From Aquabacterium humicola (GTDB taxonomy: Bacteria; Pseudomonadota; Gammaproteobacteria; Burkholderiales; Burkholderiaceae_C), in contig NZ_JARGNB010000011.1 of NCBI RefSeq assembly GCF_030167915.1, positions 62,001-126,000 on the forward strand: a stretch of 64,000 bases of DNA, read 5' to 3'. A program made the position numbers and the translations under genes. Below, piece after piece: positions 38,759 to 42,014 of this stretch (within the stretch, counting starts at the first letter, position 1; every line of letters starts with the position of its first letter). Under the pieces are notes generated by a model. The model saw nothing but the letters and a program-made list of their open reading frames with translations. It ran no database searches and was not told the origin of the DNA.

Positions 38759-39868
38759 TCAATCGTGCGCTCGAATGCCGAGCTCTTCGAGCGTCTCGGC
38801 GACGGCGTTCACGGCCTGCCGGATCTCGTTGCGACCGATCGCGCCGATGCAGCCGACGCGGAAGGTCTCGATCTCCGTGAGCTTGCCAGGATAGAGGATG
38901 AAGCCGCGCGCCTTCGCGGCCGCGTAGAAGCGCTTGAAATCGTAGGCCGGGTGCGATGGCGCATGGAAGGTGACGATGATCGGCGCCTGGATCGCGGGGT
39001 CGAGGAAGGGCACCAGGCCCAGGCGCTGCATGCCGTCGACCAGCGTGCGGTAGTTGTCGGTGTAGCGCGCCAGTCGTGCCGGTTGGCCGCCTTCGTCGAC
39101 GAACTGCTGCACGGCCTCGGCCAGCGCGACGACCACGTGCGTCGGCGGCGTGAAGCGCCACTGGCCGGTCTTCTCCATGTACTGGTGCTGGTCGAAGAGG
39201 TCCATCGCCAGGCTCTGGCTGTTGCCCGCGCATCGCTCAAGCACGGTCTTGCGCAGGAAGACGAAGCCCATGCCCGGCACGCCCTCGAGGCACTTGCCGC
39301 TGGCGGCGATCAGCGCATCGAAGGTGATCTCGCGGGCATCGATCGGCAGCGCGCCGAAGCTCGACATCGCATCGACGATCAGGCCCTTGCCGCGCCGCGC
39401 GCAGACCGCGGCCACCTCGGCCAGCGGGTTCAGCACGCCGGTGCCGGTCTCGCAGTGGATCAGGATCACGTGGGTGACCGAGGCATCGGTCTCGAGCTTC
39501 GCCTCGAGCGCGGCCGGCGACACCGGCTCCTGCTCGCCGAAGGGCAGCACGCTCAGGCGGCGGCCCATCAGCTGCGTCAGTTTCGCGGCGCGCTTGCAGT
39601 AGGCGCCGTTGTCGAGCACCAGCACGTGGCCGTCGCGCGGCACGACGGTCGCGACCGCGGCTTCGACGCTGAAGGTGCCGCTGCCCTGCAAGGGCACGAC
39701 GGTGTGCGTGTCGTGGCCGTGCACGATGTCCAGCAGCCGCTGGCGCAACTGCGCGGTGACGGCATTGAAGTCCGCATCCCACGAGCCCCAGTCCTTCAGC
39801 ATCGCGAGCTTGGTGCGCAGGGTCGTCGTCAGCGGCCCGGGGGTCAGCAGGATGCGGTCGCGGTCCAT
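38759..39868 (-). CDS. phnW: 2-aminoethylphosphonate-pyruvate transaminase
   Basis: A 369-residue class V (SGAT-like) PLP aminotransferase. [11 protein letters not shown] at the N-terminus, the [12 protein letters not shown] cofactor loop, the Asp in VDAMSSFGA and the PLP-binding Lys K192 in AASGKCLEG match PhnW closely. It transfers the amine of 2-aminoethylphosphonate to pyruvate, giving phosphonoacetaldehyde and alanine. PhnY and PhnA, encoded across the GntR gene, would complete degradation. A GGAG site precedes the ATG. It may be the first gene of the operon that runs on through the GS-like ligase. Confidence 0.94.
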
Positions 39869-39966
39869 GTCATTTGCTCCGTGATGCGAGGCACGCCGAT
39901 GAGGTTCGTGGAAGTGCTTGCAGGCGCGGGGGGCCTCTTGCGGTCAATGCATGCGGACACCGAGCG

Positions 39967-40094
39967 GGCCAAGGCCACTGGGTGCCCGGCTCCGCTCATG
40001 TCCCCCGGGCCGTGCGCCGCCGATACGCCTCGCTCAATCACCGGCCGGCCCTCCTCCTTGACTTCGCTACGCCGGGCACCCAGCGCCCTTGGCC
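39967..40094 (-). repeat. 128-base structured repeat, unit 1
   Basis: Terminal arms 39967-39990 and 40071-40094 are complementary at 22 of 24 positions. Between them lie a 21-base block (39991-40011), a 29-base variable stretch (40012-40040) and a 28-base block (40041-40068). Both blocks are identical, in reverse complement, to those of unit 2. The arms of the two units do not resemble each other. Read on the minus strand, the 28-base block contains AAGGAGG. Confidence 0.85.
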
Positions 40095-40136
40095 AAAGCG
40101 ACACCGTGGCATGCGACGGTCTGCCAGGGCGGTGCG

Positions 40137-40264
40137 GATCAGGACGGCGGGGCGCTCTGTGGAGCGAAGTCAAGGAGGAGGGCCGGCCGGAATTCAGCCT
40201 GGACGTCATGGCGCAGCCCGGCCCGGGGGACATGAGCGGAACAGAGCGCCCCGCCGGCCTGATC
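40137..40264 (+). repeat. 128-base structured repeat, unit 2 (inverted relative to unit 1)
   Basis: Terminal arms 40137-40160 and 40241-40264 are complementary at 23 of 24 positions. The order is arm, GG, 28-base block (40163-40190), 29-base variable stretch (40191-40219), 21-base block (40220-40240), arm. It has exactly the same length and spacing as unit 1, which lies 42 bases away on the other strand. On the plus strand AAGGAGG (40172-40178) and two ATG triplets fall inside. Confidence 0.85.
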
Positions 40265-40295
40265 ATGTGCGGTGAAAGCACGCGCAGTCCCATGC

Positions 40296-42010
40296 TCATC
40301 CCTTCCACGCCTGTGTACGCCGATCGACCCACCAGCCGAGCGCCATGAACAGCAGCGTCGCGACGGTGTTCGCCGCGGCGATGAGGATCGCCATCGCCGC
40401 CGCGGCGCCGATCTCGCCCGCTTCGTCGAGGTTCAGGATCGCGATCGACGCCACCTTGGTCTCGGGCGAATAGAGGAACACGACGGCCGAGATCGTCGTC
40501 ATCGCGTTGATGAAGAAATAACGCGCAATGTCCACGAGGGCCGGCGTGCAGATCGGCAGCGTCACGCGCCAGAAGGTCTTGAAGAAGGGCACCTTCAGCG
40601 AGGCCGACACCGACTCGAACTCCGGGTCCAGCGCCTTCAGCGCCGTCACCGCGGTGAGGTGGCCGGTGGTGTAGAAGTGAACGATGGTGCAGACGGTCAG
40701 GAGGGTGAGCGTGTGGTACAGCCCGCCCAGCGGATTGTTCGGCGCGTTGAAGAAGAAGATGTAGCCCAGGCCCAGCACGAGGCCGGGCACGGCCATCGGC
40801 AGCAGGGCCATCAGTCGCACCACGCTGCGCAGCGGCTTCGCGCCCTGCGTCTTCTCCAGCAGGTAGGCGCCGCCGAAGACCAGCAGCGTGCCGACCGTGG
40901 CGGTGCCCGTGGCCATCACCAGGCTGTTGACGAAGGCCTCGCCGACCTCGGCGTCGACCAACCCCATCGTGTAGTGGCGCCAGCTCGGCGTGAGGTTGTA
41001 GGGCCAGAAGCTGGCGAAGGAGGCGAAGACCGCCATGCCCAGCATCGCGAGGATCAGCGCGCACACCGCCCAGCAGTAGGCCGACATGACCGCGTCGAAC
41101 AGCGGCGCGCGTTTCGGACGATAGGGCACGGCGCGTGCGCTGAGCATCGCGGTCTGCTTGCGCGACACCCAGTGGTCGACGCCGAAGGTCAGCACCGCCG
41201 GCGCCAGCAGCAGCAGCGCGACGACCGCGCCCTTCGGGAAGTCCTGCTGGCCGATCACCAGCTTGAAGACATCGGTGGCCAGCACGTTGAAATTGCCGCC
41301 GATGACCTTGGGGATGCCGAAGTCGGTGATGACCAGCGTGAAGGTCACCAGCGTGGCCGAGATCAGCCCGTACTTCGCACCCGGCAAGGTGATGGTGAGG
41401 AACTTGCGGCGCGCGGTAGTGCCCAGCGCATCGGCGGCTTCATAGAGCCGCGCATCGGCCGCCGCGAGCGCCGTGATCAGGATCATCAGCGCATGCGGGA
41501 ATACCGCGAAGGTCTCGGCCAGCACGATGCCGGGCGCGCCGTAGATCTGCTCGATGCCGAAACGGGTCAGCCACGCCTTCAGCACGCCCTGGTTGCCGAA
41601 CCAGTAGATCAGCGAGATCGCGGCCAGCAGCGATGGCGCCAGCAGCGGCACCAGCGTGATCGTGCGCACCAGCGCCTTGAAGCGCATGCGGCTGCGCGTC
41701 AGCGCGTAGGCGAAGCAGAACGCCGTCGGAATCACGACGAGGCAGACGACGCCGGACACCCACAGGCTGTTCCACAGCGACTCCAGCAGCGCCGGCGTCT
41801 GCGCGTAGGCGATGAAGTTCGCGAGGCCGACATAGCGGCCCTGCGTATCCTCGATCGCCTTCATCAGGATCGCGCCGAGCGGCGAGGCCAGGAAGGCCAG
41901 CAGCACCGCGGCCACCAGCACCATGCCCGCATGCGCGATGCGTTCGGTCCAGTGGATCTTCAGCCGCACCGGTGCGGAAGGACCCAGCGGCACCGAGGCG
42001 GCGACGGTGT

Positions 42011-42014
<4 letters not shown>
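40296..42014 (-). CDS. 2-aminoethylphosphonate-type ABC transporter permease (fused double permease)
   Basis: A 572-residue inner-membrane protein with two consecutive binding-protein-dependent permease domains of about six helices each, as in FbpB-type importers. The coupling (EAA) segments can be seen around EAADALGTTARRKFLTITLP and ESVSASLKVPFFKTFWRVTLPI. It would form the channel of the importer with the ATPase and binding protein encoded just upstream. Its start overlaps the ATPase stop by four bases. Substrate assignment comes from the neighbouring phnW, phnA and phnY genes and from the known putative 2-aminoethylphosphonate transporter family; the protein itself only shows an ABC permease. 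Confidence 0.85.

Follow-up and report, generated by a model that had tools for sequence, protein, structure and literature searches.

The window analysed here is a stretch of 64,000 nucleotides of Aquabacterium humicola DNA, and between two of its genes lie two inverted units of equal length, each closed by arms that pair within the unit. The question raised by this locus is what such a pair of units is, since a first-pass annotation of the sequence had considered a folded RNA or single-stranded DNA, a mobile palindromic element and a short coding repeat. The gene at 38759-39868 (minus strand), which matches the phnW transaminase model, flanks the element on one side, and the gene at 40296-42014 (minus strand), which matches the aminoethylphosphonate permease model PhnU2, flanks it on the other. 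The features of the window copy (locus L016) are as follows.

39870-40299, no strand: inserted stretch, approximate ends; 12 bp at the same site in genome G015
39967-40094, minus strand: Y-type hairpin unit; arms GGCCAAGGGCGCTGGGTGCCCGGC / GCCGGGCACCCAGTGGCCTTGGCC (minus strand); unsupervised arm class Y (L016 left); model 94.5 bits
39992-40009, minus strand: conserved core of the Y unit, 3' half; purine strand GGGGG then ACATGAGC
40047-40065, minus strand: conserved core of the Y unit, 5' half; purine strand AAGGAGGAG; loop covaries
40095-40136, no strand: 42-bp spacer that separates the divergent units; a promoter scan of it gave nothing sigma-70-like
40137-40264, plus strand: X-type hairpin unit; arms GATCAGGACGGCGGGGCGCTCTGT / ACAGAGCGCCCCGCCGGCCTGATC; arm class X (L016 right); model 104 bits
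40166-40184, plus strand: conserved core of the X unit, 5' half
40222-40239, plus strand: conserved core of the X unit, 3' half

The two 128-base units, 42 bases apart and in opposite orientation, were found exactly where the first-pass annotation had placed them, and their 24-nt terminal arms are complementary within the unit to the degree that it gave, 92% and 96% (22/24 and 23/24). Of the two blocks described as common to the units, the 28-base block was recovered at that length, but the other was counted as 22 bases instead of 21. From shuffles of the window, 0.02 occurrences are expected for a 19-mer taken from the first block and 0.18 for an 18-mer taken from the second; each is found twice, a count that 1 of 100 shuffles reached as well for the 18-mer. 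The folding of both units, on either strand, beat 200 of 200 dinucleotide shuffles; the z scores were -7.7 (left unit) and -5.7 (right unit) for the strand in core orientation, and -5.4 and -5.9, respectively, for the opposite strand. Because both strands fold better than shuffles, folding energy alone picks no strand. The left flank of the copy was placed by alignment with other copies, and, judged by eye, the outer inverted repeat discussed below may have its left copy, in degenerate form, near 39930-39945. A T-run terminator signal after the stems was absent from the window scan.

The two units make up one composite element, which is present at about 16 loci of the own genome. Searching this genome with the 431-bp stretch gave 37 matches, counted as 16 loci, which comprise the window copy, 11 nearly full-length copies (89-93% identity), 3 partial copies (87-90%) and 1 copy at 74%; the same stretch had no match in the plasmid and phage collections at E 1e-5. 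In an alignment of 17 rows, made of the 16 own-genome loci and one G015 locus, the left unit carries one nearly constant arm pair and the right unit another. The earlier claim that the arms are specific to each unit is thus contradicted, as the own-genome arms fall into two nearly constant types, X and Y, over about 16 loci; it is among the copy families of different genomes that the arms differ freely. At the copy C1:1292217 the arms are altered and the pairing is retained. A covariance model, spanning 110 positions, detected 29 units in the own genome, and the three short of 32 were read as core insertions (two) and a truncation (one).

X and Y units are preferred partners. By unsupervised arm clustering, 31 of 36 composites join an X unit to an oppositely oriented Y unit; the 36 include some related copies, but neither composites truncated at a contig end nor the other own-genome copies. 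The remaining 5 were called X+X, and Y+Y was not seen. The maximum count in 10,000 permutations was 29, so that none reached 31. Since many loci are copies of each other, neither these pairing counts nor the placement counts given below are independent. The X-type arm set has the inner sequence GGGGTGCTCTG and often GATC outside, and the Y-type set has the inner sequence GGGTGNCCG and often GCCAAGG outside. A list of units without duplicate loci and without L087, L092 and L094 contained 39 divergent pairs, 1 pair in the same orientation (L097) and 14 units for which no partner was found, some of these at contig ends, and the spacers of the divergent pairs measure 35-60 or 81-152 bp. An exception to the simple pair is L278 (G421), where three units stand in series (-, -, +) in about 460 bp.

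Another kind of variation was noticed by eye in L028 and L029 (own genome) and in L113 (a Rhizobacter MAG), whose units, from two genera, carry a palindromic insert of about 70 bp, CACAAACAGTCCACTGGACTGTTTGTG, at the identical core position, between GGGGGA and CATGAGC and with TGAGC at both sides. This insert would be another small element, which seems to target these hairpins.

In the genome collection, a 21-base core pattern was found in 20 stretches, labelled as Hydrogenophaga, Aquabacterium, Rhizobacter, Paucibacter, Albitalea, Sulfurisoma and unnamed Burkholderiales, Burkholderiaceae and Gammaproteobacteria. Most of these stretches have self-complementary arms of their own, and the Sulfurisoma one (L107) pairs poorly. 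Under strict filters, scans with the model were positive for 12 of 300 genomes in the order and for 14 of 397 in the phylum; among the latter are four genomes that belong to a single family of another order (f57), and a weak match elsewhere. Within the genus, 16 of 21 genomes had units by the model with permissive filters, compared with 7 of 21 by DNA search; the wide scans with strict filters therefore undercount, and the covariance model finds the family where a DNA search misses it. The element is widespread but patchy: several genera of the Burkholderiales have it, and so does one further order of the class. No Rfam family reached its gathering score, and the only one that surfaced, MIR918, was rejected as a long-hairpin artefact (49-54 bits against a gathering score of 268, with 23-26 bits of composition bias). 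A description of the element was not found among the literature matches listed, nor was a transposase, a protein partner or a transcript found for it.

The changes among copies follow a fold. In alignment A2, which holds 31 of 32 nonredundant units (L107, whose right arm pairs poorly, was left out), 30 of 37 pairs were changed on both sides, including 24 of the 25 stem pairs, and 91.8% of the cells pair, compared with 68.4% in shuffles, which preserve no phylogeny or relatedness, and 36-40% when slid. The 98 distinct units of alignment A3, which were fitted to the model, gave double changes at 34 of 37 pairs (25 of 25 in the stem) and 91.5% paired cells against 36-45% when slid. The same long stem was recovered independently by RNAalifold, and the third pair of the short helix as drawn (C38-G99) fails in 61 of 97 units. 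The covariation proposed for the arms was thus borne out, and with it the description of a conserved loop on a changed but paired stem, which holds across genera and, as the wobble pairs show, is specific to one strand. Among the imperfect arm pairs of 68 units taken by pattern, units within 48 nt of a locus end being left out, G-T was counted 93 times and A-C 7 times, next to 91 other mismatches and 1441 Watson-Crick pairs; in the model-fitted set of 54 arm clusters the counts were 103 and 11. Drift alone predicts equal numbers of G-T and A-C, so the excess of G-T indicates that one strand folds.

The homopurine loop covaries too. In antiparallel register, GGAGG/GGGGG was found in 55 clusters, GGGGG/GGAGG in 8 and a mixed form in 3 (Fisher p 7e-8), for the 66 clusters that enter the two-by-two table, 12 of the 78 clusters lying outside it; GAAGG occurs with GGGTG in 2 clusters. 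The motif AAGGAGG, from which a possible contact with ribosome binding had been proposed, is located in this loop; the loop, however, covaries with its opposite strand, and GGGGG takes the place of GGAGG in 9 of the 66 tabulated clusters, so that a role in ribosome binding is no more than a possibility. A Shine-Dalgarno decoy formed by the purine loop, CsrA-like GGA binding and a G-quadruplex are further conceivable readings. In some units, as seen by eye, ATTCGC replaces ATGAGC opposite GCGAA, by which tandem G-A becomes Watson-Crick pairs.

The element is non-coding and about 300-430 bp long, and its sequence drifts while the pairing of one strand is largely preserved. A short coding repeat (SEVKEEGRP...GPGDMSG), as had been suggested from a frame that is open in both window units and from one ORF that spans both, can practically be dismissed: conservation follows base pairing, among the 124 distinct units the matched length modulo 3 is 2 in 55, 0 in 42 and 1 in 27, and of the 64 units where the SEVKEE frame was located by pattern, only 35 keep it open over the whole unit.

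The mobile palindromic element, the remaining proposal, was borne out by comparison with related genomes. At the window locus all ten relatives that were read (L224-L233) are empty, with the flanking genes adjoining and 1-85 bp between the matched parts; in G015 there are 12 bp at this site compared with 430 here, between flanks of 88-89% identity. G009, which has 2.1 kb between the flanking genes on its contig, and G013, with 177 bp, also match the locus and stand outside the count of ten. A second copy has an empty site in G015. At a third locus, in another genus and upstream of a gene that we take to encode chorismate synthase, nine relatives had both units (3), one unit (2) or none (4), two of the nine being covered in part and some stretches ending at contig ends. 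Copies have therefore been gained at new sites. The empty sites at two loci are too diverged to show a target duplication. Mobility and a folded structure are mutually compatible readings. In L230 (G004), a different GC-rich palindromic stretch (GGCCGCCCCAAGGGGGGCC...) fills the same intergenic site as the window element.

Orthologous loci allow the pairing to be followed in place. L100, L106 and L288 have both neighbour genes in common, at 82-91% identity. The comparisons with L106 gave 6-7 compensated double changes and 1-3 one-sided broken changes per unit, with 3 double broken changes in one unit, and L100 compared with L288 gave 1 double change, 4 one-sided broken changes and G-U steps. 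In comparison with L120 at its locus, L239 has an X unit with 4 compensated double changes and 1 one-sided change, and the X unit of L238 has 5 compensated double, 1 one-sided and 2 double broken changes; the X arms of L119, L240 and L241 are identical to those of L120. The orthologous pair L103/L109 shows 13 one-sided broken changes and no compensated double change. Compensatory evolution, as earlier proposed, therefore has compensated changes at two orthologous loci in its favour, but a third locus decays, and the sequence comparisons support selection for pairing in place at two loci, not in general. If another copy had taken the place of a unit at its locus, as may have happened, the result would mimic such compensation.

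The setting of the element was examined in 58 composites, 16 of which are from the own genome. Both neighbours were called, by a simple GC-frame script, for 53 of them, and the genes were codirectional in 38, convergent in 12 and divergent in 3, so that 50 of 53 composites lie between codirectional or convergent genes. Y was the sense unit in 12, and X in 5, of the 17 codirectional composites with clear classes. As the units are divergent, transcription from either side gives one sense unit. TTTT was present within 20 nt of 1 of 121 units and TTTTT of none; without a T-run after the stems, an intrinsic terminator is unlikely. The neighbour proteins fell into one cluster of 12, which by eye we take to be ABC ATPases, one of four, by eye presumably beside chorismate synthase, and otherwise small clusters or orthologous loci. 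At L119, L120, L136 and L137, units or composites also lie near a gene read as chorismate synthase, in three genomes of one genus and, at a distance of 410 bp, in a genome of another family.

We consider that the element is probably (a probability of roughly 0.6) a mobile element of the BIME-like, non-autonomous sort. Its units would act as folded single strands, with RNA likelier than DNA, and would be read by a trans-acting factor. A short spacer holds the related X and Y units divergent, and the strand in core orientation folds into a long hairpin, which has a stem of about 25 bp with free sequence, an internal loop of 3x3, the short helix GCGAAGU/AC-A-UGAGC, a second internal loop made of purines (AAGGAGGAG vs GGGGG) and a variable tip hairpin. 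The factor may recognise the purine loop of the folded strand, in which case the stem would be a scaffold that only presents the loop, and the different arms of X and Y would let each unit fold on itself and not with its partner. The 3' placement, together with the compensation seen in place, leads us to prefer RNA, which might arise by read-through of the neighbouring genes, over single-stranded DNA. If this is right, there is a dispersed bacterial repeat with a fixed folded loop and not a fixed stem sequence, and compensation between species at two loci would test a role in cis for the host, as RNA, against that of a mere transposition substrate.

A rival reading is that single-stranded DNA is the folded form that matters, the units being substrates of an HUH/Y1 (RAYT-like) or other structure-reading transposase and selected via transposition only. 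Twin inverted units, one family amplified per genome and hetero-dimers are what is described for REP and BIME, strand-specific folding would fit as well, and a Y1 gene was found in 16 of the 23 unit-bearing genomes searched. We nevertheless hold it to be unlikely. The other seven (G000, G015, G018, G183, G197, G007 and G005) had no Y1 match, and Y1 occurs in 10 of the 13 genomes that were searched and gave no unit match, so there is no association; of 43 Y1 matches, 30 loci were examined and held no unit, while GGGGTCAG was met in 16 of 27 Y1 loci scanned, one of which has a partial look-alike, AAGGGGGAG near GGGGACAG. Moreover, this explanation predicts that resident copies decay, but two loci remain mostly paired. 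Pairing could also be kept by mutation. In quasipalindrome correction, template switching during replication copies one arm onto the other, which in these imperfect palindromes would yield double changes without intermediates and near-perfect arms; such rewriting, however, has no strand preference (G-T 93, A-C 7), and it explains neither how A/G becomes G/A in the purine loop, where the strands are non-complementary, nor the G-U steps (C-G to T-G, T-A to T-G), which makes it highly improbable.

An ordinary MITE, in which a transposase acts in trans on the outer inverted repeats (TCGGCCCGTTGCGG) and the hairpins are passengers, appears rather doubtful to us. Such repeats do flank several composites of the genus, and they are common to a second element family of the own genome: 20 of the 21 places where the outer repeat occurs there with at most one mismatch were read, 7 of them being part of this element and 12 part of the other family. 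Yet only 6 of 44 composites have inverted flanks at p < 0.05, and in one of the 6 the sequence is other than TCGGCCCGTTGCGG; the flanks of the window copy show no significant inverted repeat (p 0.45), the hairpins are conserved throughout, the outer repeat at two mismatches is no commoner than its reversed control, and an autonomous copy was not met among the loci that were read. The element resembles MITEs in being non-autonomous and dispersed, in the outer inverted repeats of part of its copies and in its presence or absence at the same site in relatives, and differs from them in that its conserved part is the folded internal pair of units, which persists where outer repeats are undetected.

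The known system that the element resembles most in its working is the BIME. According to the literature on REPs, BIMEs, REPINs and related repeats (PMC3733652, PMC6006769, PMC8266576), BIMEs, such as the y-z REP pairs of E. coli, and REPINs likewise join two unlike palindromic units, oppositely oriented, across a short spacer. Their copies are numerous and intergenic, for the most part with codirectional or convergent neighbours, and each genome has amplified one family; inverted dimers that combine two unit types are also the rule here (31 of 36 composites X+Y). REP units, however, are given there as 20-50 nt, whereas 120 of the 124 distinct matched units here measure 96-136 nt; the stems here vary and the apical purine loop is nearly fixed; by eye, the listed units show no constant tetranucleotide beside the arms that would correspond to the unpaired foot tag of REPs (GTAG or CGTC); and the link to RAYT (Y1, PF01797) was not encountered. 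The element works like a BIME, but by size, tag and RAYT link it is not a REP.

Two further systems share single traits with it. TIRYT repeats are GGGGWSAS inverted repeats beside Y1 transposases of subclass 2.1, and like the units here they are arranged as dimers; the element core, GGGGACAC in some units and GGGGACAT in others, fits or nearly fits GGGGWSAS. Of the Y1 loci, counted without distinction of subclass, 16 of 27 scanned nevertheless carry GGGGTCAG, and no unit of the present element lay in the 30 examined. BRE, the Beta-proteobacterial repeat element of Bordetella, Polaromonas and others, is, by its description (PMC3110155), about 90 bp long, mostly intergenic, GC-rich and patchy in Betaproteobacteria, as the present element is; it is set apart by that description only, which gives tandem repeats of conserved sequence and no divergent hairpin pairs.

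A second repeat family of the own genome, F2 (L150, L157:1500-2150, L160 and others), has the same twin-hairpin architecture built on another conserved core (GACAACTGACTCGCC...GCTAAATGGACGGCGC). Its arms, of which there are two kinds, are self-complementary, its units stand as divergent pairs in L150 and L157, and it shares the outer repeat TCGGCCCGTTGCGG with the main element; no Rfam family reached its gathering score for F2 (best 23 bits vs 168). The main element might be a mobile structured RNA, in which the sense transcripts of X and Y would fold into paired recognition hairpins and one RNA-binding or RNA-copying enzyme would read the purine loop, serving both the spread of the element and a role in 3' UTRs; given the unrelated core of F2, twin hairpins would then be a general class that has gone unrecognised. 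We put this forward tentatively, as a conjecture with the odds against it. Nine contig ends of the own genome (on C1, C3, C4, C14, C40, C41 and C43) fall within a copy of the outer repeat, 125-216 bp in, so that this repeat family breaks the assembly; those of the contig-end sequences that were read resemble F2, two of them being cut ahead of its core.
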